A DNA stretch of 64,000 bases, from assembly GCA_023249675.1 (NCBI GenBank), contig JAHFCE010000006.1:1-64000 (forward strand), in the 5' to 3' direction. Under the pieces are notes generated by a model that saw only the letters and a program-made list of their open reading frames with translations, did not search any database and had not been told where the DNA came from. This stretch comes from Elusimicrobiota bacterium. Its GTDB lineage: Bacteria; Elusimicrobiota; Elusimicrobia; UBA1565; UBA9628. A program made the position numbers and the translations under genes. The stretch's first letter is position 1; each line of letters opens with the position of its first letter. Of the stretch, positions 25,404 through 42,590 are shown piece after piece.

Positions 25404-26741
25404 ATGTTGACATTCACCCTCAGCAGCGCCATGATTCTCTCCTGCCTCGCCGCCCTTTCCAATCACGCCTCGGCCGAGGGCGGTCCTCCGCGCGCGCTCA
25501 GCTGCAGCCTGAAGCAGGCGATCCAAATAGCGCTCGGCCCCGATGGGAACCGCCAACTGCAGCTGGCTCAACAGTCTCTGCGTTTGGCCCAGTCCCATTC
25601 CAACGAGTCGCGATCCGCCCTTTTTCCCGATATTTCCGCCGCCGTGAGCGGACAGCGGCAGCTCCAGAGCCTGGAGACGATGGGCGTCAGCATCCCCGGC
25701 TTGACGATTCCGCGCACGGCAGGGCCCTACAACACCGTGGATGCTCGAATGACCGCGACCAGCACGTTGGATCTGAGCTCCATCCAGCGCTGGCGCGCCA
25801 TGCGCAAGGGAATTAAAATCGCTCAAGGAGAGCTATCCCGCATGCAGGACCAGGTGGCTGCCGCGGTGGCCAAAGCGTATTGGACTTTGCTGCGCGCTCA
25901 GGCGCTGGTGCAGTCCGCGCAGGAGAGCGTTAAGCTGGGAGAAGCTCTTTTGGAGTTCGCCGATCATCGCGCGGCCGTCGGCAAAGGCATGATGCTGGAC
26001 GTCACGCGGGCGCGCTTGCGACTCGTCAACGAACGCGGGCGCCTGCTCGCCAACGAAATCCAGCAGTCCCGCGCACGCTTCAAGCTGCTTCAGGCCATGG
26101 GCCTCAGCCTGGATGCTCCCGTGGAATTGACCGACCCCCTGACTTTCACGCCCGCTCAAGAGATGCCGCTGCAGGAGGCCCTGGCAACGACCTTCGAATC
26201 GCGAGGCGACCTTCAGGCGCAGCAGGACCGCGTGCAAAGCCGTCGCCTGCTCAGCGCGTCCATCAATTCGGAGCGACTGCCGTCTCTTTTGGCCTTTGCC
26301 CACTACGGACCTCAAGGCTTGGGATTCAACCGGACGGTCAACACATATGCGGAAGGAGTCGCCCTGCGTCTGTCTCTTTTCGACGGCGCGCGCGTGGCGT
26401 CCCGCTTGGCCGCAAGCCGCGCGCAGCTGAAGGAGGAGGAGACGCTGTCCTCGGATTTGCGCGCGCAGGCCGAGCTTGAAATTCGCGAGTCGCTGGAATC
26501 GATGCGGCTGGCGAAAAAACAAGTGGACATCGCCCAAGAAGGGCTGTCGCTGGCCCAGGAAGAACTGGCTCAAGCGCAGCGCCGCTACGTGGCCGGAATT
26601 ACGAATAATCTAGAGGTGATCGAGGCCCAGACGCATCTGGCCCACGCGCAGGAAAAGCAGACAGAGGCCCTGTTCGCGCACCAGCAGGCGCGCATTGATC
26701 TGGGGCTGGCGATGGGCACCATCCGCACCCTACTCCAATGA
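25404..26741 (+). CDS. TolC-family outer-membrane protein of the DevBCA-type exporter
   Basis: A 445-residue OEP-family channel. The ATG at 25404 begins a signal peptide (MLTFTLSSAMILSCLAALSNHASA); a TTG at 25326 would add 26 residues and is less likely. Long helical repeats include QAQQDRVQSRRLLSASINSERLPSLL and, near the end, EELAQAQRRYVAGITNNLEVIEAQ, the OEP YxxG-x3-LEVLxA motif. The adaptor gene starts inside its last codons (ATGA overlap), so it is the outer-membrane exit of this tripartite exporter. Confidence 0.86.
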   Translation: MLTFTLSSAMILSCLAALSNHASAEGGPPRALSCSLKQAIQIALGPDGNRQLQLAQQSLRLAQSHSNESRSALFPDISAAVSGQRQLQSLETMGVSIPGLTIPRTAGPYNTVDARMTATSTLDLSSIQRWRAMRKGIKIAQGELSRMQDQVAAAVAKAYWTLLRAQALVQSAQESVKLGEALLEFADHRAAVGKGMMLDVTRARLRLVNERGRLLANEIQQSRARFKLLQAMGLSLDAPVELTDPLTFTPAQEMPLQEALATTFESRGDLQAQQDRVQSRRLLSASINSERLPSLLAFAHYGPQGLGFNRTVNTYAEGVALRLSLFDGARVASRLAASRAQLKEEETLSSDLRAQAELEIRESLESMRLAKKQVDIAQEGLSLAQEELAQAQRRYVAGITNNLEVIEAQTHLAHAQEKQTEALFAHQQARIDLGLAMGTIRTLLQ

Positions 26742-27616
26742 CACTCTCCATTCGATGGCTCAAAATATCCGCGCTGCTGGCGGGACTGGGACTGGTTACC
26801 CTGGTTTGCGTGTGTGTCAGACGTCGAGCCGCCGCCGGTGCCAAGCCCAGCGCCGAGGCGGCCGCCATCGGGTGCATCGGCCGCATTGAACCTGACCAGG
26901 GCGTGATCCGGGTCTCCGCCCCTTATTTCACCGGACGCCCCTCATTGGTGGGCGAGCTCAAAGTCAAAGAGGGCGATTGGATGCAGGCCGGTCAAATCGT
27001 GGCAGTCCTGCAAAGCGCGCCGCAGCTCAACGCCGCTTTGCAGCAAAGCGAGGCCCACGTGGCCTTGGCGCGCAGCCGCGCGGATAACGCGCAGGATGAA
27101 TACGTCCGATACACGAAACTCTACGAAACCAAGGATGTGTCTTCCTCCGAATTGGACGAAAGGCGCCTCGCCGCGCAGACCACGCAGGCGGCGTTGCGGG
27201 CAGCCGTGGCCGACGCCGCCTATGCGCGCGCGGAGTCGCAATCCAGCGTGATCCGCGCGCCCACCGGCGGCCGCGTCTTGAAAATCCATGCTCGACCGGG
27301 GGAAACGGTGGGAACGGAAGGGCTGCTTGAGCTGGGCGATACGACCCGTATGGTCGTGATGGCGGAGGTGTATGAAACCGACATTGGACGAGTCAAAGTC
27401 GGACAACAGGCGACCATTTCTGGAGATATCCTGCCCCAGCCGCTGCAAGGCGTGGTGGAGCGCGTCGGCTCGCAGGTAATCAGGAATGCCGTCTTGCCCA
27501 CCGATCCGGTCGCTTTTTCCGACGCCCGCGTGATTCAAGTCAAAATCGGCATGGCGGACTCTCGACCATTGGCGAATCTCGTCTACGGGAAAGCGTCCGT
27601 TGTGATCCAGCCGTGA
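26738..27616 (+). CDS. HlyD/DevB-family periplasmic adaptor
   Basis: A 292-residue membrane-fusion protein. The N-terminal anchor is at residues 8-28, with lipoyl halves GELKVKEGDWMQAGQIVAVLQ and SVIRAPTGGRVLKIHARPGETV flanking a helical hairpin of about 90 residues (about 92-165), and then a beta-barrel with VYETDIGRVKVGQQATISGD. The arrangement and the following DevC and DevA genes make it the DevB-type adaptor. Four-bp overlaps couple it to both neighbours. In cyanobacteria DevB-DevC-DevA with TolC exports envelope glycolipids; the cargo here is unknown. Confidence 0.85.
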   Translation: MTLSIRWLKISALLAGLGLVTLVCVCVRRRAAAGAKPSAEAAAIGCIGRIEPDQGVIRVSAPYFTGRPSLVGELKVKEGDWMQAGQIVAVLQSAPQLNAALQQSEAHVALARSRADNAQDEYVRYTKLYETKDVSSSELDERRLAAQTTQAALRAAVADAAYARAESQSSVIRAPTGGRVLKIHARPGETVGTEGLLELGDTTRMVVMAEVYETDIGRVKVGQQATISGDILPQPLQGVVERVGSQVIRNAVLPTDPVAFSDARVIQVKIGMADSRPLANLVYGKASVVIQP

Positions 27617-28770
27617 GGCAGGAGGTCGCCTGTCTCGCCTGGCTCCAACTCGCCAAAGACAAGCTCCGTCTGGCGGCGGCTGTGGCCGGCATCACGTTCG
27701 CCGTCGTCTTGATGCTGGTCCAGCTGGGCTTTAAAGAGACGCTCATTGAAAGTGCCGCTCTGCTGTATTCCCACGTCAATGCAGACCTCGCTTTGATCAA
27801 TCCCGACTACCAATATATCCTCGCGACCAAAAACATCAGCAAGCGGCGCTTATACCAAGCGCTGAGCTTCAAAGGTGTGCAGTCCGTCGGTTTCATCAAC
27901 CTAGGCGTAGTCCCCTGGAAAAATCCACAAACGCTCAAGGAACGCATCATCTTCCTGGTTGGATTGGAGCCGCGAATCGGCGTCTTCGATCTGCCGGCGA
28001 TCGACGCGAAAATCCCGGAGCTCCGCAATCCAGACACCGTCTTGTACGACGTGGACAGCCTGCCCGATTTTGGCCCGATCAGCAAGGAGTTCTCGGAGCA
28101 TCAGCGCGTCATGACGGAAGTCTCCGGACGCAAAATTCAAGTCGTCGGACTGTTCAAAATGGGAACCTCCTTCGGGGTCGACGGCACTGTCATCACGAGC
28201 GACCTCAACTTCTGTCGACTGCTCTCCACCCAGAATCCCAAGCTGGCCAGCATCGGCCTGATCAAGCTCAAAGCCGGCGTCGATCCGGAAAAAATGCGGG
28301 ACCTCATGGCCGCAGCGCTCCCGCGGGATGTGCGCGTCTTGACCCGCCGACAGCTGATCGAGCTGGAAAGAGGCTACTGGACGACCAACACTCCGATCGG
28401 CTTTATCTTCAACTTGGGCGTTCTGATGGGCCTGTTCGTCGGCTGCATCATCGTCTATCAAATCCTCTACACCGATGTGTCGGACCATCTCAGCGAGTAC
28501 GCAACCCTCAAAGCCATGGGGTATCCGGATCGCTACCTCTTTTCGGTTGTGATTCAGGAGGCCCTCATCCTCTCCCTGTGCGGCTTTCTTCCGGGATTGA
28601 TCGTCTCCTTGATTGTGTACCGGGTGGCGGCCGCCGCGACGCTGCTGCCTCTGCAGATGACTGTCCAGCGGGCGTTGATCGTCTATCTTCTCACGGCGGC
28701 GATGTGCGCCCTGTCCGGGGCGCTGGCGATGCGTCGCCTCAACAGCGCCGATCCGGCGGAGATCTTCTAG
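27613..28770 (+). CDS. DevC-like ABC exporter permease (FtsX/MacB fold)
   Basis: A 385-residue permease. TM1 is at about 18-40 (LAAAVAGITFAVVLMLVQLGF), followed by a periplasmic domain with the DevC pattern LINPDYQYILATKNISKRRLYQAL, and three C-terminal TMs: LGVLMGLFVGCIIVYQILYTDVSDHLSEYATLKAMGY, the segment near 310-340, and one near 355-375. It has no fused ATPase, unlike MacB, so it needs the DevA-like ATPase encoded next. The start is GTG overlapping the adaptor stop, and the stop overlaps the ATPase GTG by 1 bp. Confidence 0.86.
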   Translation: MRQEVACLAWLQLAKDKLRLAAAVAGITFAVVLMLVQLGFKETLIESAALLYSHVNADLALINPDYQYILATKNISKRRLYQALSFKGVQSVGFINLGVVPWKNPQTLKERIIFLVGLEPRIGVFDLPAIDAKIPELRNPDTVLYDVDSLPDFGPISKEFSEHQRVMTEVSGRKIQVVGLFKMGTSFGVDGTVITSDLNFCRLLSTQNPKLASIGLIKLKAGVDPEKMRDLMAAALPRDVRVLTRRQLIELERGYWTTNTPIGFIFNLGVLMGLFVGCIIVYQILYTDVSDHLSEYATLKAMGYPDRYLFSVVIQEALILSLCGFLPGLIVSLIVYRVAAAATLLPLQMTVQRALIVYLLTAAMCALSGALAMRRLNSADPAEIF

Positions 28771-30128
28771 TGGCCGATTTAGAGCCGGTCATTGCGGTCC
28801 GCAATGTGAATTATTACTACGGCGCCGGCACGCTGCGCAAACAGGTGCTCAACAATGTTTCCGTCGATATCGAGGCGGGAGAAATCGTCATTCTCACCGG
28901 CCCTTCGGGATCCGGCAAAACCACTTTACTCACGCTTGGCGGGGCCCTGCGCTCGGTGGAAGAGGGCAGCGTGCGCGTCTTGGGGCAGGAACTCAACGGC
29001 GCTGGTCATGCCGCTCTCGTCAGCGTGCGTCGAAACATCGGTTTTATTTTTCAAGCCCATAATCTCCTGGGCGCGCTCACCGCTTCTCAGAACGTCCAGA
29101 TGTCGTTGGGGCTAGACCCCACATTGCCTCCGGAGGAGGCCCGCGTCCAATGCGCCGCCATGCTTGGCGCTGTCGGACTCGGCGCTCACTTGAACCATTA
29201 CCCGGAGCAGCTGTCCGGCGGTCAGCGGCAGCGCGTGGCGATCGCGCGCGCCTTGGTGCGGCAGCCCAAGATCGTTTTGGCCGATGAGCCGACGGCCGCC
29301 TTGGACAAGCAATCCGGGCGGGAAGTCGTCATACTTCTGCAAAAACTGGCGAAAGAGCAAGGCTGCGCGATTCTCCTGGTCACGCACGACAATCGCATCC
29401 TGGACATCGCCGACCGCATCATGATGCTGGAAGACGGTCGGATCGCCTCGTTTTCCTCCGGGATCATGGAGCACACGGGAAATCTCCTGTCCGTCTTTGC
29501 CTCTCTTCAGCGCAAGGGCGACCTCGTGCGCCACGTCGGCAGCCTCTCCGACAAGAAGTTCCTCGAGTTCCTCGAGCAAGTCACAGCGGAATTCGAACAA
29601 TTCACGCGCATGATCGAACTGGGCAATCAGGAAGTGGTCGAGGCGTTGTTCGATCAAATGCTGGACGCCATCACGCTGAAAATCCGGGACATGCTGGAAG
29701 CCGAACGGGCGACCATTTTCCTCGTGCAGCGAGAGCTCGGCATTCTCCAGTCGAAGATCGCGCATGGAGACGGGCAAAAGCCGCTGAAGATCACAATTCC
29801 TCTCGCAGCGGGCATCGCCGGGCGCGTGGCCCGGACGGCCGAAACCTTGAACATCGCGGACCCCTACCAACACCCCGATTTCAACCCGACAGTCGACCGG
29901 GAGACGGGCTTCCTCACGCGTCACATCCTCTGCATGCCGATCAGCGACAAGACTTCAAACGTGTTCGCCGTGGTTCAGCTGGTCAACAAAAAAGGCGGCA
30001 GCCCGTTTTCCGCCGCCGATGAAAAGCGTTTCCGTGATTTTGCCGAGCCCATGAGCGCCATCCTTCAAGCCGCCATCTCTCTCCAGCGGCGCGCGGAACC
30101 CGGACCCCTTCCTCAGAGGCCCGATTAG
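28770..30128 (+). CDS. DevA-type ABC ATPase with C-terminal GAF domain
   Basis: A 452-residue cytoplasmic ATPase. Residues 1-235 are a DevA/LolD-type ATPase with Walker A GPSGSGKT (44-51), signature LSGGQ (148-152) and Walker B IVLADEP (168-174). After a helical linker, residues about 285-440 form a GAF-like domain (ATIFLVQRELGILQS, AGIAGRVARTAETLNIADPY, TRHILCMPISD, VVQLVNKKGGSPFSAADEKRFRDFA). The GAF suggests that a small ligand or redox cue gates export. The GTG start overlaps the devC-like stop. The stop overlaps that of the opposing sterol-reductase gene by 4 bp. Confidence 0.87.
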   Translation: MADLEPVIAVRNVNYYYGAGTLRKQVLNNVSVDIEAGEIVILTGPSGSGKTTLLTLGGALRSVEEGSVRVLGQELNGAGHAALVSVRRNIGFIFQAHNLLGALTASQNVQMSLGLDPTLPPEEARVQCAAMLGAVGLGAHLNHYPEQLSGGQRQRVAIARALVRQPKIVLADEPTAALDKQSGREVVILLQKLAKEQGCAILLVTHDNRILDIADRIMMLEDGRIASFSSGIMEHTGNLLSVFASLQRKGDLVRHVGSLSDKKFLEFLEQVTAEFEQFTRMIELGNQEVVEALFDQMLDAITLKIRDMLEAERATIFLVQRELGILQSKIAHGDGQKPLKITIPLAAGIAGRVARTAETLNIADPYQHPDFNPTVDRETGFLTRHILCMPISDKTSNVFAVVQLVNKKGGSPFSAADEKRFRDFAEPMSAILQAAISLQRRAEPGPLPQRPD

Positions 30129-31210
30129 TAGAAGCCGGGAACGATCCGCGCGGGCACGGCACGGCAATAAGTCTTCCACTCTTCTCCATAAGCCGCCAGG
30201 CATCGCGCATGGTCGCGCCGTTCGCGCTGCAGCAGAAGCGCGAGGAGGGAGAAGAAATAAAAATACGGCAGGAGATGGTTGAAGCCGCAGGCAAGGCACC
30301 AGGCCAGGGCCATGCAGAGATCGCCGAGATAATTGGGATGGCGGGCCGCGCCCCACCAGCCGGAGGCCAGCAGCCGTCCGCCCTGCGCCGGATCTTGCCG
30401 GAACCGATGCTTCTGCAGATTGGCGCCGCGGAAAATCAAGTAACCAGCGGTGTTGAGGACGACAACGGCCGCGGCGAACATCGGCGACGGCGCGTAGGGA
30501 TGATTGACGAGATACAGGGCCTGCAGACCGTACGTAAACGGCACCCACACAAGAGTCCCCCAGCACAACATCCACCCAAACTTCTCATGCCGCATATCCC
30601 AGGTACTGAGAACCGCCTCTTCATGGAAAAAATAGTCGGCGACGTAAAGGGCCTGAAAGACGTTCACCAGAACCATCGAGAGCGAGAGAGCGCCATGAAG
30701 CTGGTATTGCTTCGCCGCCATGGAGAGATTGAACAACAGCCAGAGAAGAAGGCTGGGCCGGCCTTCGCAGAAGAATTTCAGGTCGAAGCCGCCCAATCGG
30801 GGATTGAGGGCGAGACCTTTGAAGTAATCCTGAGCGCTCATCCCGACCCGCCGGCCGCGGGCATAAAGACCGAAGCTGCAGGCAAAGGCGAAGATGTTGG
30901 CCGTGGCCAACAGCGGGCCGAAAAGGTCATAAGCCGCCGTGGAGGATACCCAGCCCCTCTCAACGACAAGAAGAGCCGCGGCCAAGGTCACCCAGAGGCA
31001 AGTCCAGCCGTTGAGCGTGTAGCGCAGGCCCGCGGCCTCCCGGACTTTTCCCGGCACGACGGCGTATAAGACAGCCTGAAAAGCAAGCCAGCAACCATAA
31101 AGGACCGCGGACGTCGGCGTCGGCAGCGGCAAGGCGCTGGCGCTCGTTGCGCCCATCCACAGAGAGACCGTCAGCAACGGCAAGACCAGCATGAACGCGA
31201 TGGCGGACAT
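30125..31210 (-). CDS. Sterol C-14/C-7 reductase family (ERG4/ERG24-like)
   Basis: A 361-residue polytopic membrane protein with about 8-9 TMs. It matches the ERG24/TM7SF2/DHCR7 family: DLKFFCEGRPSLLLWLLFN, YVADYFFHEEAVLSTWDMRHEKFGWML, VPFTYGLQALYLVNHP, the NADPH-site block NLQKHRFRQDP and the C-terminal GWWGAARHPNYLGDL with YGEEWKTYCRAVPARIVPGFY. In sterol synthesis such enzymes reduce the delta14 bond left by CYP51. It is the last gene of the operon holding CYP51 and the cyclase fusion, so delta14 reduction is the best call; delta7 or delta24(28) reduction cannot be excluded. Confidence 0.88.
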   Translation of the reverse strand: MSAIAFMLVLPLLTVSLWMGATSASALPLPTPTSAVLYGCWLAFQAVLYAVVPGKVREAAGLRYTLNGWTCLWVTLAAALLVVERGWVSSTAAYDLFGPLLATANIFAFACSFGLYARGRRVGMSAQDYFKGLALNPRLGGFDLKFFCEGRPSLLLWLLFNLSMAAKQYQLHGALSLSMVLVNVFQALYVADYFFHEEAVLSTWDMRHEKFGWMLCWGTLVWVPFTYGLQALYLVNHPYAPSPMFAAAVVVLNTAGYLIFRGANLQKHRFRQDPAQGGRLLASGWWGAARHPNYLGDLCMALAWCLACGFNHLLPYFYFFSLLALLLQRERRDHARCLAAYGEEWKTYCRAVPARIVPGFY

Positions 31211-31211
31211 G

Positions 31212-31733
31212 TTAACGACAGCGCTCCGACTCGGCCTCTTGTCTCAGGCGGGCGTTGATGGCCGTGATCGAATCGTAGACCATATAGCCGCTTCCCAGCA
31301 GCCACGGCAAGTTCGCTCCAAAAAAAATGGTGAACCGCCGCCAATCGTGGCGGCTCATGCCGGAGTAACCGGACAGGTGCGCCACCAAAAAATACAGCAC
31401 CACGGAATAGACAATGTAGGATGAGACGCTCAACTGCAGGGCGTGACGGTAATACGCGCGCCGGAGGATGGCATAGAGCAGCCAGACATGCAGCCACGTC
31501 GTCGCAAAAACGTGAAACCCTTCAAGGGCCAATGAGAACGGCGACACCGGATGACAATAACCCCGATCGCTCTCTCCGTAGACGGCCCACAATCGGCCCA
31601 GGCAGTCGTACCGGGGCAGGCCGCGGTGATAAAAGAGCCAATAGAACTCCACGGTCCACGCCACGACCAGAAAAAAAATAATGATCCCGATGATCGCTCG
31701 ATCCTTCTTGGGGCGGGAGTCCAAACCCGTCAT
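31212..31733 (-). CDS. Emopamil-binding-protein-like sterol delta8-delta7 isomerase
   Basis: A 173-residue membrane protein with four TMs (about 13-33, 66-90, 100-120, 136-156), an EXPERA/EBP topology. It resembles human EBP in order: RLWAVYGESDRGY (47-59), a Glu-led helix (Glu71), LQLSVSSYIVYSVVLYFLVAHLSGY (99-123) and NLPWLLGSG (141-149), whose Asn141 and Trp144 align with EBP active-site residues. Glu29 fits the first catalytic Glu, but the paired His appears to be Ala25; His74 may substitute. These alignments are by eye and from memory. It overlaps the cyclase fusion by 4 bp. Confidence 0.83.
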   Translation of the reverse strand: MTGLDSRPKKDRAIIGIIIFFLVVAWTVEFYWLFYHRGLPRYDCLGRLWAVYGESDRGYCHPVSPFSLALEGFHVFATTWLHVWLLYAILRRAYYRHALQLSVSSYIVYSVVLYFLVAHLSGYSGMSRHDWRRFTIFFGANLPWLLGSGYMVYDSITAINARLRQEAESERCR

Positions 31734-34700
31734 GAAGCGGCTCCCTGCTCGGCGGCCACGGGCGTTTCCAGGCTGATCGATCGGGCGGGTTCGATCGGAG
31801 CTTCCGGCCGCAGGCGGCGGCGCGCTTCATACAACCCCAAGGCCCACACCGGGAAGTAGCTCCGATAGAGGGTATAGTCCAGGGAAGCTGTGCGGAAAAA
31901 AATGCCGGACGGATCCTGTTTGGGCCAATTGCCGTCTTCGCCCTGCAGCCGAGCGAGACACTGAGCGCCCCGCGCGATCGCTTCCTCATCCGTCTCGCCG
32001 GCTTCCAACAGCGCCAACAAGGCCCACGCAGTTTGGACGGCTTGGCTCTGCGGGTGTTCGATGTAAACGTCCCGGAGAGAGCTTTCGAAATATTCGCCCC
32101 AGCCGCCGTCAGGTCTTTGCGTCTTCAACAGCCAACGGCATGCTTTTCGAATGGCCGGGTCACGACCGGGGACACCGGCGGCCAGCAAGCCTCTGATTCC
32201 AAACAATGTCCCATAAATGAAGTAGATCCCCCAGGCCCCAGGCCAGGAACCATCCTCTCTTTGTTGGCGTCGAAGCCAGACCCCGGCAGAGTCGACGGCA
32301 CGGCCGACATCTTGGCGCCCCGAAATCGGACTGAAGCGGGACAGAGCGGCCACGCAGGACGCCGTGCATTCGACATAGGAGTGTTCCGTCATGGAGTCGC
32401 CGAACATCTCGGCCGAGTTCATCCATGACAGGGTGGAGGCCGTGCGGCGCCGTTCGTACGAGCCGAAGCCTCCGTCTGGGTTCTGGCAGCCGAGGATGAA
32501 ACGAACGGCCTCCTGCGCTCGGCGGGGGGACAGCGAGTCCGCATCGTCCTGAAGAGCCAACAGGGCCTCCGCCGTGCAATCGCTCACAGGCCAGCCATGC
32601 CAAACGCGGGCAAAACAAAAACCTCCGCGCGTCTCCTCGGGGCGGCCGGGCAGGGAGGCCGTCATCTGCTGCGAGGCCAGCCACAGTCGGCCCTGCCGCA
32701 GGCCTTCGGCCGCCTCCGGTCGAGCCGCGGCCTCCAGAGCCTGCAGCGCAAACGCCGTGTCCCAGGTCGCGCTCAGAGCGCCGGCGACGCGCAGGCCGTG
32801 CGGACGATCTTCGAACATCCAAACCCCGAAACGAGCTAGGGCTTTGCGCAGGTCGCCGTCGTTGGGATCGGCAAGCCAGAGCGAGAGGATGTTGAGCAGA
32901 CCGTTGACCGGCGAAAGACAGGCATAGTCGGTGTTCCGCAATTCCATCCGAATGTGGCCCAGGAGCTCGGCTAAGACCTCCTGCCGTAGGCTCCGCAGAT
33001 GCCAGCGCTCATAGGCGGCGGACAACCCGTACAAGCAACGCAAAGCTAAACTCGGCGGCGAAAAAATCTCGGCGCTGCGCAGGGCTCCGCGGGCTCGTCG
33101 GAAATCAACGCTGGAATAATCCGCCGCATACAGCTCCGCGCGCACAGCCTGGAGAACGTCGGTCAATGGCGCTTGGAATTTGCGACCGTACAGATACGCC
33201 ATGCCGAGATAAATCATGCGGGTGTGGCAATAAAAATTGGACGGATGAAACGGCAGCCACCGGGGCATCTTCCAAGCCTCCGGAAGTATCGGCTGCACGC
33301 CATCCCAGTCGTAAAGATTGAGTACCGCGAGCCAGAACTTTCCCCAGGTCGGAATGGCCACGACGCCGCCGTTTTCAAGAATGAAGCGATGGGCGGCCGC
33401 GATCAGCGGATCCTCGGACGCCACGCCGAGAAGGCGCGCGGCGATGTAAACGAGGGTCGTCATGTAGAGGGAGGGAGCGGCCTGCGCGCCGAGGGACCAG
33501 AGGCCGTCCCGGCTGGTCGTGGCAAAGTGACGCAGCAGCGCCTCTCGACGCTCTTGCGAGATCGCCAGCCCGATGACATGAGCTGTCAACACGTATTGAG
33601 CGGCCAGCATGGGGCACCAGACGACTTCGCCTTCCCAAGAACCGTCCGTGCCCTGAGAGGACAGCAAAAAGCGCGTGCCGCGCTCCAGCGCGGCAGAGAC
33701 ATCGACCCGTGGAGGGATGGACGCGGAAACGTCGGCTGCCTTCGCCGCCGGAAACCACTTCCCGAGCGCAAGCTGGGTCAACGACCTTCTTAAATATTGC
33801 AGAGAGTCCGTGACCGAGCGCCATCGGTATCCCCGTTGCAGCATCGTCAATGAAGCGGCGGCCACGACCTGGACAAGCGGCCGGACGATCTCCCAGCGGC
33901 CGCCGTCTTCCCCGGCCAAAAGACTCATCGCGCGCGAATCGTTCTTTAAATCGTTGCGCCAGAGGCGATAGACGGCTTGGCGCAGCGGCGCGGCGGATTG
34001 TCGTTCCAAGGTCAATAGCTCGTGCAGCATGCCCGCCAGCAACCGCGGCGCACGGCTGCGTGAGGCGCGCTCGCGCCGGTACCGTGCGAAGCTGTCGCTG
34101 GCGGCGAGGGATTCTCCATCCATAAATCCCAAGGTCAAGCCCACGGCGGTGATCGGATGGCAATGTCCCGCCGCATCTCCGGCCAACGCGAAGCCCTCGC
34201 GGCCGTAATGGGCACGGGGGGAAACGGTATTGGCGGCCCAGATCGGAGTTCTTTCCTGCAACGACCGGTAAAAAGCGGGACGCAGGGCCGGGGGCAGGAC
34301 GCGGCCATAGGAATCCCACAGCATGGCGGCGCCTGCCTTCGGCGTGCCGGGAAGGGCGGGGGCATCCAGCATTAAGCGCAACTGTTTGGGGCCAATCCGG
34401 TAGAGAAAACCAGGTCCGCAGACGCCGATGAACAGATGCCCAAAACCTTCAAAGGGGGCATCAACGTCCTCTAAAAGCACTCCGGCCATATGCGAGACGA
34501 CGGCACGGTCATCCGGCAGGCCAAGCCATTTCCGCGTTAAAGGCGAGCGACCGGTCGTTCCAACGATGGCCGGCACGCGGATCGTCCGGCTGCTCGCGCC
34601 CTCCATGAAACTGAGCGTTTGGCCCTCGACATTCGTCACTTTGCTCGAGGAAAGATAGCGGATTGACGGCTGGGCGGCGACAGCGTCGCGCAACACGGTC

Positions 34701-35008
34701 AGAAGACCGCTGTATTCGCAACTCATCCCGGACATGCCCGCGGGGTAGCGCATCAGAATGGGGCTTGTCCCATCATCGGGATAAACGGCAAAGCCCTGTC
34801 CGACCGACGAGTCCACAGACGCCAGCGCGGGCATGACGCCCAAACGCTGCAAAACAGCGACCGCGCCCGGGTGCAGCCACTCGCCGCCCAGCCGCCGCGG
34901 CGCCTCGGGCCGAATTTCCAGCAGAAGAACTTGCGCTCCGCGCCGGGCGAAGGCCAAGGCCGTCACGCACCCGACCGGCCCGGCCCCGATTACGGCGACG
35001 TCAGGCAT
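31730..35008 (-). CDS. Squalene-epoxidase-like / oxidosqualene cyclase fusion
   Basis: One 1092-residue chain. Residues 1-345 are an FAD monooxygenase with GAGPVG (8-13), Glu31 and GDAAGHCHPITAVGLTLG (277-294), close to the squalene epoxidase GDA...HPLTGGG motif. After a helical linker, residues about 435-1065 are an oxidosqualene cyclase: YCHTRMIYLGMAYLYG (His595), VSDCTAE (808-814, catalytic Asp810 with Cys811), YVECTAS (Cys881), DGSWPGAWGIYFIYGTLFG, DGGWGEYFES and YFPVWALGLYEA. DCTAE rather than DxDDTA marks it as an oxidosqualene, not squalene-hopene, cyclase. Start ATG 35008 has GGGAGGA 4 nt before it. It probably makes a lanosterol, parkeol or cycloartenol type product. Confidence 0.9.
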   Translation of the reverse strand: MPDVAVIGAGPVGCVTALAFARRGAQVLLLEIRPEAPRRLGGEWLHPGAVAVLQRLGVMPALASVDSSVGQGFAVYPDDGTSPILMRYPAGMSGMSCEYSGLLTVLRDAVAAQPSIRYLSSSKVTNVEGQTLSFMEGASSRTIRVPAIVGTTGRSPLTRKWLGLPDDRAVVSHMAGVLLEDVDAPFEGFGHLFIGVCGPGFLYRIGPKQLRLMLDAPALPGTPKAGAAMLWDSYGRVLPPALRPAFYRSLQERTPIWAANTVSPRAHYGREGFALAGDAAGHCHPITAVGLTLGFMDGESLAASDSFARYRRERASRSRAPRLLAGMLHELLTLERQSAAPLRQAVYRLWRNDLKNDSRAMSLLAGEDGGRWEIVRPLVQVVAAASLTMLQRGYRWRSVTDSLQYLRRSLTQLALGKWFPAAKAADVSASIPPRVDVSAALERGTRFLLSSQGTDGSWEGEVVWCPMLAAQYVLTAHVIGLAISQERREALLRHFATTSRDGLWSLGAQAAPSLYMTTLVYIAARLLGVASEDPLIAAAHRFILENGGVVAIPTWGKFWLAVLNLYDWDGVQPILPEAWKMPRWLPFHPSNFYCHTRMIYLGMAYLYGRKFQAPLTDVLQAVRAELYAADYSSVDFRRARGALRSAEIFSPPSLALRCLYGLSAAYERWHLRSLRQEVLAELLGHIRMELRNTDYACLSPVNGLLNILSLWLADPNDGDLRKALARFGVWMFEDRPHGLRVAGALSATWDTAFALQALEAAARPEAAEGLRQGRLWLASQQMTASLPGRPEETRGGFCFARVWHGWPVSDCTAEALLALQDDADSLSPRRAQEAVRFILGCQNPDGGFGSYERRRTASTLSWMNSAEMFGDSMTEHSYVECTASCVAALSRFSPISGRQDVGRAVDSAGVWLRRQQREDGSWPGAWGIYFIYGTLFGIRGLLAAGVPGRDPAIRKACRWLLKTQRPDGGWGEYFESSLRDVYIEHPQSQAVQTAWALLALLEAGETDEEAIARGAQCLARLQGEDGNWPKQDPSGIFFRTASLDYTLYRSYFPVWALGLYEARRRLRPEAPIEPARSISLETPVAAEQGAAS

Positions 35009-36024
35009 TGTTCCTCCCACTTGCGGACCGTCAGGCGTTGAAAATGGCCGATGGCCGGGTTCAACTCGGCGATGGGGGCGTCGTGATGGGCCTCGTGCGC
35101 CTCCTGCTCCGCCTCAACGGCAAAACCGTCTTGACGCAGGAGCGGGGCGATCAAGAATCGATTGGCCAGGCGAAGCACCGGGGTCATCAACCAGCGTGGA
35201 ATGCGAAAAGGCGTGAGCGGAATTTTGAGGGCCTCGAAATAAAACAGGAAGAAAACCCGGGTCGTGCGCGCGTCCAACGGCAGCAGAAAACACCAGTGTT
35301 TTATCTTGCCGCCGGTGTCCGACCACTGATATGGGTACTCGTAACACAGCTCGATATGGTTCGTGTCGATGCGGCGGCGATCGACAAAAAATTTAGAGAT
35401 CGCTCCTCTGCCAATCTGACTGTCGTAGGAGACCCGCACCCGGTCGCCCTCGGTTTCGCAGCGAGTCAGACGGGCGTTGACGAAAGGCTGGTATGTGCGG
35501 TGCAGCCACGCATGCGTAAAATCGCTGACGTTATCGATAATGAGCGAGTGGTGCGCTTTCCAGGTAAAATCCAACGGGGCGCAAGCCCAACGGCCGGCCC
35601 CCTCAAGCTCGGGAATATCCGGGACGGCGCGCTCGCCCGCCTTGGCGGGATCGCCCGGGAATATCCAGATGAGCCCGTAGCGAACCCGCACCGGATAGGA
35701 CGCGACCTTAAAAGTCGGCATCGAACGTCCAAAAAGCTCATGGGGGATGTGCGCGACTTGACCGGCCGCGTTGTACGCCCACCCGTGGTAAGCGCACACC
35801 AAGTGGCAGCCTTCGACCGACCCTTCCGTGAGCTTGAGTTGACGATGAACGCATCGATTCTCGATCGCCGCCAGCAGGCCGTCCTCGCCGCGATACAGCG
35901 CGATCGAGCGGTTCCAGAATCGAACTTCCACGGTGCGGCCGGGCCTCACGGCATGGTCATATTCGACGGCATACCAATAGTCTGGATGCAGACCGGCAGC
36001 GCGGGCTTTTTTGCGCATATTCAT
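34990..36024 (-). CDS. Rieske oxygenase, probable sterol C-4 methyl oxidase (SdmA-like)
   Basis: A 344-residue Rieske non-haem iron oxygenase. The [2Fe-2S] ligands are C58-x-H60 and C77-x2-H80 (CVHRQ and CAYHGW). The mononuclear iron site is in DNVSDFTHAWLHRTY with His171 and His175. The ATG at 36024 overlaps the CYP51 stop by 4 bp; the longer frame upstream is inside CYP51. In bacteria, sterol C-4 demethylation is known to use a Rieske oxygenase (SdmA) with an NAD-dependent reductase/decarboxylase (SdmB); both types are in this operon, so that role is the best inference. A ring desaturase role (DAF-36-like) is the alternative. It needs a reductase not seen here. Confidence 0.82.
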   Translation of the reverse strand: MNMRKKARAAGLHPDYWYAVEYDHAVRPGRTVEVRFWNRSIALYRGEDGLLAAIENRCVHRQLKLTEGSVEGCHLVCAYHGWAYNAAGQVAHIPHELFGRSMPTFKVASYPVRVRYGLIWIFPGDPAKAGERAVPDIPELEGAGRWACAPLDFTWKAHHSLIIDNVSDFTHAWLHRTYQPFVNARLTRCETEGDRVRVSYDSQIGRGAISKFFVDRRRIDTNHIELCYEYPYQWSDTGGKIKHWCFLLPLDARTTRVFFLFYFEALKIPLTPFRIPRWLMTPVLRLANRFLIAPLLRQDGFAVEAEQEAHEAHHDAPIAELNPAIGHFQRLTVRKWEEQCLTSP

Positions 36025-37364
36025 GTCGATTTGCGCCGATAACGGACGCGACACGGCGGCCTTGGTCCGACCACGAAGGTGCGATAATTGGGGCGCACAT
36101 CGCGGTCGATCAACTCCAGGTTGAAGCGGCGAAATAAGACGCTCCAAATCACTTTCACTTGCAGATACGCGAAGGTCCCGCCGATGCAGGCATGACGCCC
36201 TCCCCCAAAGGCGATCATCGAGTATTTCGGAAAGCCCTCGTTGGAGGAAAAACGGTCGGGATTATAACGGTCCGGATCGGGAAAAATATCCGGGATGCGC
36301 TGCGAGACGGCGGGGGAGACCATCGCGATGTCCCCGGCCGGAAGGACATATTCACCGTACGTCACGTCCTTCAAAATCCGGCGCATCAGCATGATCAGCG
36401 GCGGGTGCATGCGTTCCGCCTCGCGGATGGCGCGCTCGAGAACGCCCATTGCGCGCAAGGCCTCCAACGTCATCTCCGGCGCGCCCGCGAATGCCGCGTC
36501 CTGCTCCGCAAGAACCGCGGGCAGAAACGCCGGATTTTGCAGCAAGAGCGCTCCCGTCCAACACGCCAACACCGAACTCGTGTGCTGGCCGGCAAAAATC
36601 GAGGTCAACAACAACCCCGTGATCGCCTCGTCCGTGAGAGCCTTCCCATCGCCGCCGCGGGCCGCCATCAACGTCTGAAGAAAATCCTCCCCCTGCGTTC
36701 GGCTCTCCCGACGCTCCGCCACGATGCCGGAGATGATTTCCACCATCCGCCGGCGCGCTCTGTCGCGCCGCTTAAACGACGGCAGCGGCAGATCGGGGTT
36801 GAAAAAAGCCAGCAGATTGATGCCGCCCTCCAGATCATGGTAGAGGCGGGCGAATTCGGTGGAGAGGCGCCGCCGGAATTCATCGCCGACCAGGCAGCGG
36901 CTGGAGATGAAGACCGTCAGCTCATTCATCGCCGTCAGAAGGTCCGCCTCGCCCCCTTGCGGCCAGCGTCCGAAATAGTTTTCCGCTTCTTCTTCCATGA
37001 CTCGGGCGTAAGATCTCAGCCGCTCATCCTTGAGAGCCGGAAACAGGAAGCTGATCTGCTCCTCCATCACGTCGGGAGTCGCATCATAAGCGATTCCCGG
37101 CCCGAAAATCGGGACGGTGAATCGGTAGGCCTCCTTGGCGCTCAGCTGGTCGTCGGGGGCTTGAAAAAAGGCCGCGTTGGCTTTCGGCCCCGTCAGGGCA
37201 TGAATTCGCGAGCCGGCCAGGCGGAACCAGAAAATATCCCCCAAGCGTTCGCGACCGCGCTGAAGAAGCCCCACCGGGTCCGCATGAAATTTAAACGCAT
37301 GCCCAAACCATGGAATCCCGCCGGAAAGCCGCGGCGCGAGCCGGGAGGCCCCTTGATGGCTCAA
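36021..37364 (-). CDS. cyp51: Sterol 14-alpha-demethylase (cytochrome P450 CYP51)
   Basis: A 447-residue P450 that removes the C-14 methyl of lanosterol-type sterols. CYP51-specific marks are YRFTVPIFGPGIAYD (80-94, B' helix) and the I-helix FAGQHTSS (257-264). The ExxR is at 315-318 with RMHPPLIMLMRR, and the haem loop is FGGGRHACIG with Cys393. The TTG at 37364 is the best start: it overlaps the upstream stop as TTGA and has GAGG 6 nt before it; the ATG at 37460 lies inside the SDR gene. No N-terminal membrane anchor is visible. Redox partners are not in the window. Confidence 0.93.
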   Translation of the reverse strand: MSHQGASRLAPRLSGGIPWFGHAFKFHADPVGLLQRGRERLGDIFWFRLAGSRIHALTGPKANAAFFQAPDDQLSAKEAYRFTVPIFGPGIAYDATPDVMEEQISFLFPALKDERLRSYARVMEEEAENYFGRWPQGGEADLLTAMNELTVFISSRCLVGDEFRRRLSTEFARLYHDLEGGINLLAFFNPDLPLPSFKRRDRARRRMVEIISGIVAERRESRTQGEDFLQTLMAARGGDGKALTDEAITGLLLTSIFAGQHTSSVLACWTGALLLQNPAFLPAVLAEQDAAFAGAPEMTLEALRAMGVLERAIREAERMHPPLIMLMRRILKDVTYGEYVLPAGDIAMVSPAVSQRIPDIFPDPDRYNPDRFSSNEGFPKYSMIAFGGGRHACIGGTFAYLQVKVIWSVLFRRFNLELIDRDVRPNYRTFVVGPRPPCRVRYRRKST

Positions 37365-38356
37365 ATCAGGCCTCGTTGCGCAAAAAATCCGTAAGCTTCC
37401 TTGACCGCCTGCGCAAGATCGGTCGGCCGATATCCCAATTCCTGACGTGCCTTGCTGCAATCCGCCCGGCGCCGCATGCGCAGCAGGCGCACCGCCCCCG
37501 GCGTAAAACGTTGCTCCGCCTCGGGAAATAAACGCGTCAAGAAGAAACTGGAAACGTGGGCCGCCGCGGACATCAACGGGGGGGACAGTCGAAGTCGGGG
37601 ACGCGGCCGTCCGGTCACGGACTCGAACAGCGACATCAGATCATCCGTCGTCATATATTGGGTGCTGAAAATATAACGCTGTCCGGGACGTCCCCGGCTC
37701 ATCGCCAGCAGGTGGCCCTGCACGATGTCTCGAGCCGCGACGAATTCAAATCCGCCCGGCACGTACGCGCGCAGCCTGCCCTTGGCGTAATCGCAGAGAG
37801 TCCGTCCCATGCGGGAGGGTCCGAAGTCCTGGGGACCGACGATGGCGCAGGAAATGGCGACGACGACTTCCAAACCGTCCGCCGCGGCTTTCAGGCATTC
37901 ATGTTCGACCAAGGCCTTGGAGGCGGCGTACGGCAGCGGCCGGTCGAAGGGATCAAAGGGCATCGACTCATCGCTGGGGCGGGAAGAATCATAGCCCACG
38001 GCGCTCAACGAGCCGGTGACGACTACGCGCGCAACGCCCGTCTCCAAGGCCGCGCGCAAAACGTGGCGCGTTCCCAGCACATTGCAGTCGTAAATCTCCC
38101 GCCGCAGCCGGTCCCCGCCCTCGAGCGTGGAAACCTTCGCGGCGCAATGATACACGCGCTCGCAGCCGTGAACGGCGGCCTTGGTCGCGAGAAAATCCCG
38201 CAAGTCTCCATAAACGCGCTCGACCTCCAGGCCTTCGACGGCGGAGTCGTCGCTGTCCGCGCGCAAAAGCACCCGCACGGCTTCGCCGTCTTGCAGAAGG
38301 CGGCGCACCAGATTCGCGCCCAAATGGCCGCTGGCTCCGGTGACCAACGTTTTCAT
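37361..38356 (-). CDS. Extended SDR: 3-beta-hydroxysteroid / sterol-4-carboxylate dehydrogenase type (SdmB-like)
   Basis: A 331-residue NAD(P)-dependent extended short-chain dehydrogenase. The nucleotide-binding motif is TGASGHLG (6-13), the acidic loop includes DLRD (51-54), and the catalytic pair is Y143-x3-K147 (YAASK) with Ser near 116-118 (TGSLSAVG). The family includes NSDHL and bacterial SdmB, which decarboxylate and oxidise 4-carboxysterols. It is the first gene of the operon and overlaps cyp51. The ATG at 38356 directly begins the Rossmann fold. Context decides the function; by sequence alone it could act on another sugar or steroid. Confidence 0.85.
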   Translation of the reverse strand: MKTLVTGASGHLGANLVRRLLQDGEAVRVLLRADSDDSAVEGLEVERVYGDLRDFLATKAAVHGCERVYHCAAKVSTLEGGDRLRREIYDCNVLGTRHVLRAALETGVARVVVTGSLSAVGYDSSRPSDESMPFDPFDRPLPYAASKALVEHECLKAAADGLEVVVAISCAIVGPQDFGPSRMGRTLCDYAKGRLRAYVPGGFEFVAARDIVQGHLLAMSRGRPGQRYIFSTQYMTTDDLMSLFESVTGRPRPRLRLSPPLMSAAAHVSSFFLTRLFPEAEQRFTPGAVRLLRMRRRADCSKARQELGYRPTDLAQAVKEAYGFFAQRGLI

Positions 38357-38467
38357 GAGACGAAAAATCCGGACACGCGCATCCTTAGATTCCTCATTTA
38401 AACGCCTCAAGCCAGACTGCGGCTCCCCGAAAGAATGGGGGGTGACGAACTTTGGCTTCCCAGACGA

Positions 38468-38496
38468 ATTAGACCAGTTTATTTCGTCCTCGCCAA
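38468..38496 (-). promoter_or_regulatory. Putative sigma70-type promoter of the sterol operon
   Basis: On the minus strand TTGGCG (38496-38491) and TCTAAT (38473-38468) are 17 bp apart. A transcript starting near 38460 would have a leader of about 105 nt before the ATG at 38356. The elements are moderate matches. Confidence 0.4.
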
Positions 38497-38517
38497 CCCC
38501 TGTAAACGCCGCGATGT

Positions 38518-38985
38518 ATGGGGAATATGCTCATCGGCATCATCGCCGGATTGGCCGGGGCATTTTTTTCCACGGCCATTCTGCGCGGGCAGCTATTCTT
38601 CGCTCGTTTCAACTCCGGTCCCAGTCGCTACCTGCCCCCAACGGCCACCGCCAGCGCGCTGCTGGCCGTGGCTTATTTCGCGGGAGCTCAGGTCCTCGGG
38701 CCGGGTAATGAGGTCTCAAAGGGCTTGACTCACGGAAATCTCAATTCGTGCGGGGCGCTGTTCCCGCTGGCCAAGATGGCGACGACGATGCTCAGCTATT
38801 GGTCCGGGATCGCCGGGGGCATTTTCGCCCCGAGCCTCTCAGCCGGGTCGGCGCTGGGCGCCGACGGCGCGCGTTTCATGGGAGCCTCGGTCGAAAGCTG
38901 CGCCCTCATCGGAATGGCTGCGTTGCTTTCCGGGACAATTCAAGCGCCGATCACGTCCTTCGTGATCATATTTGAGGATGCTTGA
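38518..38985 (+). pseudogene. Truncated ClC-type chloride channel remnant
   Basis: A 155-codon open frame covering only the C-terminal half of a ClC channel/antiporter. It has the GIAGGIFAPSLSAGSALG filter-region motif and IGMAALLSGTIQAPITSFVIIFE. Intact ClC proteins exceed 400 residues; the first half with GSGIP and GREGP is absent, and the frame stops inside the last helix after FED. It is probably a decayed gene left at the junction of the sterol operon and the toxin-antitoxin and nitrogen-oxide block. Confidence 0.75.
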
Positions 38986-39036
38986 ACTGAAAAGAAGCTG
39001 CCGCACAATATTTTTATTCGGACTTTAGAACCTGGT

Positions 39037-39330
39037 TCATTTCAGCCAGCCCCGACGTCGAGCTTCCAAGATCCCTTCTTGATACGCATCACGACGGTTG
39101 ACTATCTGGATCACTCGAACCAAAGGCGACTCGATATGATAGAGAACCCGATAATCGCCCACTCTCAGACTCCAATATCCACTGAGGTTGCCGCTCAAAG
39201 GTTTGCCGTAGTCTTGGGGCGCACGCGTTAAACGCGACTCGATGGCTTTGCGGACCCGCGTTTTGACATCGCGGTTAAGCAGTGGAACATCTTTATCCGG
39301 AACGGCCGGATGGTAAACAACCCGGAACAC
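39037..39330 (-). CDS. RelE/ParE-family toxin
   Basis: A 97-residue basic protein of the RelE superfamily, probably a ribosome-dependent mRNA endonuclease. It has the central SLRVGDYRVLYHIE and the C-terminal VIQIVNRRDAYQE characteristic of RelE toxins. The start is a GTG 2 nt after the antitoxin stop. It forms a type II toxin-antitoxin pair with the upstream gene and should be co-transcribed from the palindrome-bearing promoter at 39567-39595. Confidence 0.88.
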   Translation of the reverse strand: MFRVVYHPAVPDKDVPLLNRDVKTRVRKAIESRLTRAPQDYGKPLSGNLSGYWSLRVGDYRVLYHIESPLVRVIQIVNRRDAYQEGILEARRRGWLK

Positions 39331-39332
39331 GT

Positions 39333-39560
39333 CTACTTCCAGACCTCGTCATGAGTGAGCCAGCGCCGCACCTTGCCCGACTTCATGCGCTTGTCCGCTA
39401 GCACCGATAGTCCGAGGTCTTCGACATCCCCGCACGCCTCACGGATCAGATCACGCGCCGCCATAGACAAAGTCGTACCATTGGTTTTAGAGATCGACTT
39501 CACTTTAGCGTAGAGGCCAGGCTCAAGCGTCACGATAAGACGTGGGTTCTTGGTTGGCAT
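39333..39560 (-). CDS. Antitoxin of the RelE pair (ribbon-helix-helix-like)
   Basis: A 75-residue protein. The N-terminal PRLIVTLEPGLYAKVKSISKTNGTTLSMAARDLIREA looks like a ribbon-helix-helix DNA-binding domain, and the C-terminal KRMKSGKVRRWLTHDEVWK is the likely toxin-wrapping tail. The ATG at 39560 is preferred over an upstream in-frame codon because the latter overlaps the promoter. It probably represses its own promoter via the 13-bp palindrome. The adjacent toxin gene starts 2 nt after its stop. Confidence 0.82.
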   Translation of the reverse strand: MPTKNPRLIVTLEPGLYAKVKSISKTNGTTLSMAARDLIREACGDVEDLGLSVLADKRMKSGKVRRWLTHDEVWK

Positions 39561-39566
39561 AGCCAA

Positions 39567-39595
39567 AGTGTATCTGAAGTGATTCACTTTGTCAA
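39567..39595 (-). promoter_or_regulatory. Consensus promoter with palindromic operator, leaderless, of the toxin-antitoxin operon
   Basis: On the minus strand a perfect TTGACA (39595-39590), 17-bp spacer and TACACT (39572-39567) are followed by exactly 6 nt and the antitoxin ATG (39560). The spacer holds the 13-bp palindrome aagtgattcactt (39577-39589), a natural operator for the antitoxin. Confidence 0.75.
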
Positions 39596-39720
39596 GGAGC
39601 AAAATCAGGTCAAAATGGGGTCCCTGAAGGTGCAGATCGGAGAACCGAATTAACCTCTAAAGTCAGCGCCATCAGGTGGCGTGACCTCGGCATGGCCGTA
39701 ACGTTGCGCGGACAGTCGCG

Positions 39721-39927
39721 GTGAAGGAACTCCCGACTCTCGACATGACCGTGCGCCGTATCCTCGATCTCTGGCCCGAGATCGAACCATTGCTCGCAAG
39801 GCACGGTTTGGACCTGTGTTGCGGCGGAGTCCACCCGTTGCGCATGGCGGCCCAAGCGCACGGCCTGAATCCTGACGCGGTCCTCGCCGAGATACTGGCG
39901 GCACTGGAAACGGAGGCGCGACGATGA
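39721..39927 (+). CDS. DUF542 (ScdA/RIC N-terminal-like) protein
   Basis: A 68-residue single-domain protein. The pattern LARHGLDLCCGGVHPLRMAAQAHGL matches the DUF542 domain found at the N-terminus of RIC/YtfE/ScdA iron-sulphur repair proteins, with the two adjacent cysteines (CCGG). Stand-alone copies often occur beside DUF2249 and nitric-oxide genes, as here. The start is GTG at 39721; the next gene overlaps by 4 bp. Confidence 0.8.
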   Translation: MKELPTLDMTVRRILDLWPEIEPLLARHGLDLCCGGVHPLRMAAQAHGLNPDAVLAEILAALETEARR

Positions 39928-40133
39928 CTCGGATCACGATGGACCTGCGCGGACTCACGCCGCCCGAGCCGATGATACGCATCCTCTCCGCGTTGGGCGA
40001 CGACGAGATCGAGGCGACGCTACCGCACCAGCCGGTCCCGTTGTACGCGATGCTGGAGGAGCGCGGCTATGCGCACGAAGTGGTCCGCGACGAGCCCGGC
40101 GTGTGCGTTGTGCGCATTAAAAGACGACCATGA
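39924..40133 (+). CDS. DUF2249 protein
   Basis: A 69-residue small soluble protein. LDLRGL-type start (MDLRGLTPPEPMIRILSAL), LPHQPVPLYAMLEERGYAHEV and a final VRIKR strand are typical of DUF2249, a TusA/SirA-like fold common in denitrification and nitric-oxide-response clusters. No catalytic Cys is obvious. It overlaps both neighbours by 4 bp, so three genes are co-expressed. Confidence 0.82.
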   Translation: MTRITMDLRGLTPPEPMIRILSALGDDEIEATLPHQPVPLYAMLEERGYAHEVVRDEPGVCVVRIKRRP

Positions 40134-41467
40134 GCGAGCCGATCGAAGTCGACGAATGCGCCCAGCCGGCGCCGCAGCGCGGCAGCGGTCCGTTCCTGAA
40201 GATCGCCCCGCCGTTGTCGGTTCCTCTAAGACATTTCGCCTTGGGGTCCGCGGCGTTCCTCGTTTTCGCCGCAGGCCTCTGTTTGGGCGCCGATCGGCTG
40301 GTCGGATTCGGTTTCGAGGCGAAATTCGCGCTTGGCTTGGTCCATGTCCTGACGCTCGGTTGGATCGCGCAGACTATCCTCGGCGCCTGGACGCAAATGA
40401 TCTCCGTGCATGGCGAGACGCCCCTGGCTTCAATTGGCATCGTGAAGACCTCGTGGTGGCTCTTCGCTGCGGGCTTGGGTGCTTTCGTCGTCCTGTTGTG
40501 GTCGGGGTCGGACCGATATTGGATCGCGGCCGCGCTGGTCTACGCCGGGCTCCTAGGCGAGCTCGCGGTGCTCGGGGTCACGCATGCGCGCGCGGTGCGA
40601 CGCGATTGGACATGGACCCATTTCACGGCGGCGTTGGGCTGGCTGTCCGTCCTCGGTCTCATCGGCGTGCTGATGGCTATCGATCGCCACCGCGGGACGA
40701 TCTTCCGCGATCCGGAGGGTGGGTTGATCGCGCATGTCCATATGGCCCTCGTCGGCTTCGTGACAACGACGGTCTTTGGGGCGGGCTACCGGCTGTTCCC
40801 TTGGGTCTCGATGCATCAACTGCGCTCGAAATTGGCGGGGCGGTTGTCGTTCATATTGCTCCAAATTGGACTGGGGGGCCTGGCGTTTGACGCGCTGTTC
40901 TTCGGGCGGCGGTTGATGCCGTTGTGGGCGATACTGCTGGCCGTATCCTATCTGCTCTATTTCTCCCAACTGAGGCCATTGCTGGCGGGCGGGGCGACTT
41001 TCGACCCGTCCCTTGCGCTCGTCTTGCTCGGTGTCGCCGGCGGCGCGTTATGGGTCACGGTCGGCGTCGGGTTGGCATGCGGTTGGATCAAAGATGAACC
41101 GTCGGCGCGCGCGGCCTATGTCTACAGCGCTCTCATCGGCTTCTTCGCGCCGATCATCCTGAGTCAGTCCCATAAGATCGCGCCTTTCCTCGTCTGGCTC
41201 CATGTCTATAGCCCGCGCCAGTATACGCCGCCAGTCAAGGTTCCGAAAATCGACGATCTTACGAATCGCGGCCTCGCCTGGGGGGAATTCTTCACGCTAG
41301 CCGTTGCGGTACCGCTTGGAACGGCGGGTTTCTGGCTTGAACGAGGAGATCTGGTGCGTTTCGCCGGAATTTATCTATTCGCGACGGCCGCATTCTATGC
41401 CTGGAACCTGGGGACCACGCTTCGACATATCGTGCGTCCGGATAACCGTTGGACCCTGCCCTCATGA
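40130..41467 (+). CDS. Haem-copper-oxidase-subunit-I-like / NnrS-type membrane protein
   Basis: A 445-residue polytopic membrane protein with about 12 TMs and regularly placed His residues. Segments GLVHVLTLGWIAQTILGAWTQMISV, AHVHMALVGFVTTTVFGAGYRLFPW and FFAPIILSQSHKIAPFLVWLH resemble the stand-alone oxidase-subunit-I-like proteins found with nitric-oxide genes. These proteins may bind haem and protect against or reduce NO. It is in an operon with DUF542 and DUF2249. It is not a proven NO reductase; the full set of NorB ligands cannot be confirmed by eye. Confidence 0.7.
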   Translation: MSEPIEVDECAQPAPQRGSGPFLKIAPPLSVPLRHFALGSAAFLVFAAGLCLGADRLVGFGFEAKFALGLVHVLTLGWIAQTILGAWTQMISVHGETPLASIGIVKTSWWLFAAGLGAFVVLLWSGSDRYWIAAALVYAGLLGELAVLGVTHARAVRRDWTWTHFTAALGWLSVLGLIGVLMAIDRHRGTIFRDPEGGLIAHVHMALVGFVTTTVFGAGYRLFPWVSMHQLRSKLAGRLSFILLQIGLGGLAFDALFFGRRLMPLWAILLAVSYLLYFSQLRPLLAGGATFDPSLALVLLGVAGGALWVTVGVGLACGWIKDEPSARAAYVYSALIGFFAPIILSQSHKIAPFLVWLHVYSPRQYTPPVKVPKIDDLTNRGLAWGEFFTLAVAVPLGTAGFWLERGDLVRFAGIYLFATAAFYAWNLGTTLRHIVRPDNRWTLPS

Positions 41468-42573: not shown

Positions 42574-42590
42574 TCAAGGAGGATTGGTTC

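Follow-up and report, generated by a model that had tools for sequence, protein, structure and literature searches.

A predicted squalene epoxidase-oxidosqualene cyclase fusion encoded within a sterol gene cluster of an Elusimicrobiota bacterium

Squalene epoxidation and the cyclisation of oxidosqualene commit the pathway to sterols. To our knowledge, these two activities reside on separate proteins wherever eukaryotic or bacterial enzymes have been characterised. Here we describe a gene in which a squalene epoxidase (SQE) and an oxidosqualene cyclase (OSC) are joined in one reading frame, located on a stretch of 64,000 nucleotides from an Elusimicrobiota bacterium (assembly GCA_023249675.1, contig JAHFCE010000006.1, positions 1 to 64,000), hereafter referred to as the window. 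The human counterparts, squalene monooxygenase (SQLE; 6C6N) and lanosterol synthase (1W6K), have folds and key residues in common with the two halves of the window protein, at identities of approximately 21% and 34%, respectively, but are two separate membrane proteins, with SQLE possessing an extra N-terminal part. The sterol cluster of Calothrix sp. NIES-4105 (PMC10202945; L043) displays 43% (SQE) and 56% (OSC) identity to the window halves and has the same gene order and the same partners (SdmA, SdmB, CYP51 and ERG24); there, however, SQE and OSC are two genes with a one-base overlap (TAATG), rather than one frame.

The two-domain architecture itself was encountered by Brown et al. (2023; PMC10070321), who trimmed 'fused SMO/OSC homologs' from bacterial genomes or metagenomes whilst preparing an OSC tree. 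A sequence-only reading of the window, made without database searches, knew of no described natural fusion of this kind; the architecture is nevertheless not unrecorded. Since it occupies a single methods sentence of that paper, which gives no description, distribution, context or test of the fusions, it is already noticed in print but undescribed, and the enzymes themselves are of known kinds. Beyond that sentence, no description or test of an SQE-OSC fusion was found in the full texts searched, the coverage of which did not include Hoshino & Gaucher 2021 (PNAS, bacterial steroid genes).

The fused gene and its two domains

The minus strand between 31730 and 35020 constitutes a single open frame of 1096 codons counted from a GTG, and the plus strand across 31730-35008 contains many stops. 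The ATG at 35008 is the likelier start, as it is preceded by a strong ribosome site, GTGGGAGGAACAATG (GGGAGGA). The sequence-only reading, which gave no strand, had placed a fusion of two consecutive pathway steps at the same coordinates; the unbroken frame and its end at 35008 were borne out, and the domain assignment was supported by profile searches, the predicted fold and the sterol operon context. Residues are numbered here from the GTG unless stated otherwise, whilst the earlier numbering began at the ATG and is lower by four.

In the N-terminal half of the fusion protein, Pfam searches identified FAD_binding_3 and SE domains; the C-terminal half contained both SQHop_cyclase domains. Taken with the profile search and the alignment of an AlphaFold2 (AF2) model built from 16 fused sequences (mean predicted local distance difference test score, pLDDT, 78.8; predicted template modelling score, pTM, 0.57), these revealed a chain composed of a full-length SQE, a linker of approximately 16 residues and a complete OSC.

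A family profile of the N-terminal half, constructed from 20 relatives, matched human squalene monooxygenase with an E value of 1.6e-52 over 391 positions (4-394), including the C-terminal part, and the next family, VisC, followed at 1e-19. Residues 4-422 of the AF2 model aligned with residues 122-569 of SQLE (6C6N; Z-score 40.2, root-mean-square deviation 2.3, 412 residues aligned), hence the boundary of 1-345 drawn previously for this domain was too short. Halogenases (Z-score 35) and PHBH (32) ranked lower by fold, and identification of the FAD half as a UbiH-type hydroxylase or a halogenase was rejected on the basis of both the profile and the fold ranking. The Pfam SE domain scored 44.7 bits against a cut-off of 20.1, and the motifs of the flavin adenine dinucleotide (FAD) site were retained as GAGPVG (GxGxxG), GEWLHP (GExLxP) and GDAAGHCHPIT (GDxxxxxHPxT). 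Tyr92 was also retained and aligns with the tyrosine of the IPYP motif of SQLE (Tyr195). Both sequence and model therefore support a predicted squalene epoxidase in the FAD half, with another substrate being unlikely.

The C-terminal half of the model aligned with human OSC over residues 438-1072, and the active-site residues D814, C815, C885 and H599 were intact. The first three correspond to the triad listed earlier as Asp810/Cys811/Cys881, whose integrity was confirmed by alignment with D455/C456/C533 of the human enzyme. The OSC model TIGR01787 returned 494 bits, above its cut-off of 323, whilst the OSC model TIGR03463 scored 700 bits versus 291 bits for the squalene-hopene cyclase model TIGR01507; the TIGR03463 cut-off of 851 is missed both by the window OSC and by the experimentally confirmed OSC of Calothrix (731 bits). 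By sequence, this half is closer to the sterol-type OSCs than to squalene-hopene cyclases. Its motif VWHGWPVSDCTAE is the same as in the Calothrix NIES-4105 OSC, and the positions linked to product carry Val (human 453) and His (human 449). As expression of the Calothrix enzyme in E. coli yielded lanosterol (PMC10202945), these residues and that analogy indicate that the cyclase product is most likely lanosterol.

Distribution of fused and unfused genes

A scan of GTDB species genomes retrieved 27 relatives; in 15 of them, SQE and OSC form a single frame whose start is conserved. Searches with the window protein also covered samples of 379 Myxococcota, 395 Acidimicrobiia and 390 Cyanobacteria genomes. 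The Myxococcota included 62 OSC-positive genomes, 15 of them with a fused gene (three on single contigs of 10-13 Mb), whilst four Acidimicrobiia (three fused) and one cyanobacterium (fused) were positive. The two-domain architecture, which had been proposed as something to look for in protein databases, was thus found in more than 25 one-frame homologs from at least three other phyla, and these independent occurrences, including those in single-contig genomes, ruled out a sequencing error joining two genes. The fused gene was the sole SE-family match in 12 of the 12 fused genomes examined. The cultured strain Calothrix rhizosoleniae SC01 is one of the bearers of a fused gene. Two fused homologs from the Myxococcota/delta group, L027 and L028, possess altered cyclase catalytic motifs (ECTAE and DATAE, respectively), hence their product or activity may differ.

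In unfused relatives, SQE was located directly before OSC, with overlaps of ATGA (Hormoscilla) or TAATG (Calothrix NIES-4105). The two genes of Amazonocrinis (L017, 9240-9320) share a reading frame and are separated by no more than two stop codons (TAA GGA TGA) and a few bases, possibly an intermediate between the split and fused forms. In Hormoscilla GM7CHS1pb (L039), OSC and SdmB are each split over two frames and are intact in the near-identical L042 and L032; these splits are likely to be long-read indel errors.

A single fusion origin with vertical descent was rejected, as the fused genes did not form one clade (approximately unbiased test, p-AU 7.6e-53) and the fused and unfused states required at least six changes on the tree; fusion and/or splitting therefore happened repeatedly. 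The two cyanobacterial fused genes branched within the unfused genes of Cyanobacteria, a position that received full support. The window gene, which lies on a long branch, was weakly placed: the OSC tree put it close to Cyanobacteria or did not resolve it, whilst in the SQE tree it grouped with the Myxococcales representative L020.

A second kind of fusion, carried by some Myxococcota, was found at no fewer than ten loci (L035, L037, L084-L088, L091, L092 and L094), in which an SQE is joined in frame to a squalene synthase domain. Those of the Myxococcota L037, L084, L085 and others resemble the window gene in that the same SQE family is joined to a neighbouring pathway step within a sterol cluster, but there SQE is paired with squalene synthase and the cyclase portion has no catalytic DCTAE motif, whereas the window partner is a complete OSC. 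The middle domain of at least six of the ten corresponds to a stretch towards the end of OSC (profile E values of 1e-16 to 1e-9, model positions of approximately 451-608 of 635), and this remnant suggests that the SQE-squalene synthase fusions arose from an SQE-OSC fusion by decay of the cyclase. Nine of the fusions could be placed, and their SQE halves formed one clade (SH-aLRT 98), L084 and L085 are single-contig genomes, and both kinds of fusion occur near each other in L084, L085, L086 and L091. The SQE-squalene synthase fusion was not mentioned in the literature searched, though no search was aimed at it.

The sterol cluster and its chromosomal setting

The fused gene is part of an operon-like series of genes transcribed in one direction, in the order SdmB-like, CYP51, SdmA-like, SQE-OSC, EBP-like and delta14-reductase, with overlaps or tiny gaps between them (Table 1). 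The end of the SdmA-like gene overlaps the start of the fusion by 19 nt, and the stop of the fusion overlaps the EBP-like start (ATGA). SQE and OSC are adjoined by the same cluster genes in Cyanobacteria and Myxococcota. Elsewhere, the genome encodes an HpnC/HpnD-like pair and a squalene-hopene cyclase-like gene, so that the organism probably makes hopanoids too; an FA_hydroxylase-family gene was also present, though this family is too generic for assignment as a C5-desaturase.

Table 1. Positions of the fused gene, its domains, neighbouring sterol genes, the surrounding variable segment and the SQE-squalene synthase fusions (window coordinates unless a locus is named)
Feature	Coordinates	Strand	Evidence or remark
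SQE-OSC fusion gene	31730..35008	minus	1092 aa from ATG 35008; alternative GTG 35020
Squalene epoxidase domain incl. C-terminal helices (residues 5-422)	33755..35008	minus	human SQLE profile E 1.6e-52; 6c6n Z 40.2
Short interdomain linker (about residues 423-438)	33707..33754	minus	pLDDT <50 at 422-438; low conservation in alignment
Oxidosqualene cyclase domain (residues 439-1072)	31805..33706	minus	human lanosterol synthase E 3e-132; Pfam; fold alignment
Catalytic Asp-Cys of DCTAE motif, D814-C815 (human D455-C456)	32576..32581	minus	alignment
SdmB-like sterol C4 decarboxylase/dehydrogenase	37361..38410	minus	NF052578 333 bits (below cut-off 600); 54-70% identity to sterol-cluster homologs
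CYP51 sterol 14-demethylase	36021..37460	minus	PDB CYP51s, up to 400 bits
SdmA-like Rieske sterol C4-methyl oxidase	34990..36147	minus	NF052579 409 bits (below cut-off 600); 51-66% identity to sterol-cluster homologs
EBP-like (EXPERA) delta8-delta7 sterol isomerase	31212..31733	minus	PF05241 45 bits; 6OHT E 2.5e-8
Delta14-sterol reductase (ERG24 family)	30125..31210	minus	PF01222 321 bits; 4QUV 358 bits
Island-like segment holding the sterol cluster	25300..50243		absent in same-genus G006 between hexapeptide gene and tRNA-His
tRNA-His, right border of variable segment	50244..50318	minus	
SQE-squalene synthase fusions	L037:979-4062; L035:3-2864; L084:3997-7473; L085:11780-15247; L086:4408-7824		

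In the same-genus genome G006, the hexapeptide gene located left of the ATP-binding cassette (ABC) exporter in the window is followed directly by tRNA-His, such that approximately 25 kb, comprising the exporter, the sterol cluster and the nos genes, is missing. Three further genomes (G005, G013 and G009) harbour 8-10 kb of other DNA at this site, between the hexapeptide-transferase gene and tRNA-His. The G+C content at third codon positions (GC3) was 0.70-0.75 in the cluster genes versus 0.77-0.87 in flanking genes. The absence of the segment from G006 and the lower GC3 of the cluster fit acquisition of the sterol cluster at a variable locus next to a tRNA gene. Of the window proteins subjected to Pfam searches, none was an integrase, and no convincing direct (att) repeats were found around the segment. 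Misbinning of the contig was also considered and rejected, given that its flanks are 75-92% identical to same-genus genomes, with one gene on the contig at 90-92%, and that gene order on either side of the segment matches that of G006.

Other genes were observed near the cluster. A truncated open reading frame for a CLC chloride channel (window 38518-38985), with a match confined to the second half of the Pfam profile, adjoins the sterol genes and is followed, at approximately 39000-39600, by a toxin-antitoxin-like pair judged by eye. Further along the variable segment (40130-48273) are nitrous oxide reductase genes, encoding a nosZ propeller, NosD and an ABC ATPase and permease, together with a COX1-like fragment.

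Proposed function and alternative explanations

The sequence and model evidence make it highly probable that the fusion is one bifunctional squalene-to-lanosterol enzyme, which is probably membrane-associated. With FAD, O2 and electrons from an outside donor, the N-terminal half would convert squalene, potentially supplied by the HpnC/HpnD-like pair, to 2,3-oxidosqualene. D814 of the C-terminal half would protonate the epoxide, with cyclisation most likely leading to lanosterol. CYP51, the delta14-reductase, SdmA/SdmB and EBP would subsequently strip the methyl groups from C14 and C4 and move the double bond, towards a C4,C14-demethylated delta7 or delta8 sterol. We infer the activity, product and membrane location of the protein, along with any advantage that the fusion may confer, such as a fixed 1:1 stoichiometry or the channelling of oxidosqualene, the last of which is put forward here as a hypothesis.

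An explanation that rivals channelling, yet is compatible with a bifunctional enzyme, is that both halves work and that the fusion arose through near-neutral loss of a stop codon between overlapping, translationally coupled genes, conferring at most a 1:1 ratio. The unfused relatives with SQE directly before OSC (ATGA, TAATG or the in-frame TAA GGA TGA), the alternation of fused and unfused genes on the tree and the wide variation of the linker among fused homologs, in both length and sequence, are as this explanation would have it. On the other hand, the fusion has persisted, with its domains well conserved, in no fewer than three further phyla, and the second fusion, of SQE with squalene synthase, hints at selection for joining neighbouring steps. 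On balance, we place this explanation only slightly short of an even chance.

Several observations weigh against a working two-domain enzyme in this particular genome. The arrangement of the domains relative to one another is uncertain in the AF2 model (pTM 0.57), and among the 16 fused homologs, the SQE half of the window protein diverges furthest. It retains 73 of the 84 columns that are invariant in the others, where any other member retains at least 73 of 77, and its Pfam SE score is half the 85-97 bits of its relatives. Furthermore, the DG-motif aspartate is replaced by Thr (GTTGR), though the glycine is kept; this aspartate is general to class A flavin monooxygenases and is not specific to SQEs. 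The divergence and the lost aspartate would be expected if the SQE half were inactive or altered, with only the cyclase working on oxidosqualene from elsewhere. We regard this as improbable, however, as the frame is intact, most of the otherwise invariant residues are kept, the genome encodes no second SE-family match, and three other fused members likewise lack the aspartate (Ala at this position, with Asp in the remainder of the clade). An assembly or binning artefact, whether a missed stop or a foreign contig, has next to no probability despite the draft state of the genome (54 contigs) and the presence of the gene in only this one of 341 genomes of its phylum, given the homologous fusions in many independent assemblies and the same-genus identity and gene order noted above.

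The SQE-OSC fusion, and in some Myxococcota the SQE-(cyclase remnant)-squalene synthase fusion, could together constitute a covalent front-end to sterol synthesis, leading from farnesyl diphosphate to lanosterol via two polypeptides, with neither squalene nor oxidosqualene occurring free. This proposal is speculative and we consider it rather doubtful; if true, such a front-end would shield oxidosqualene from competing cyclases, for instance the squalene-hopene cyclase-like enzyme of the window genome. As a natural single chain that recurs across several phyla, the SQE-OSC fusion can be compared with its unfused relatives as a direct test of whether a very hydrophobic epoxide is channelled. 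It could also serve as a compact tool in triterpene production, and is relevant to the assembly and transfer of bacterial sterol pathways.

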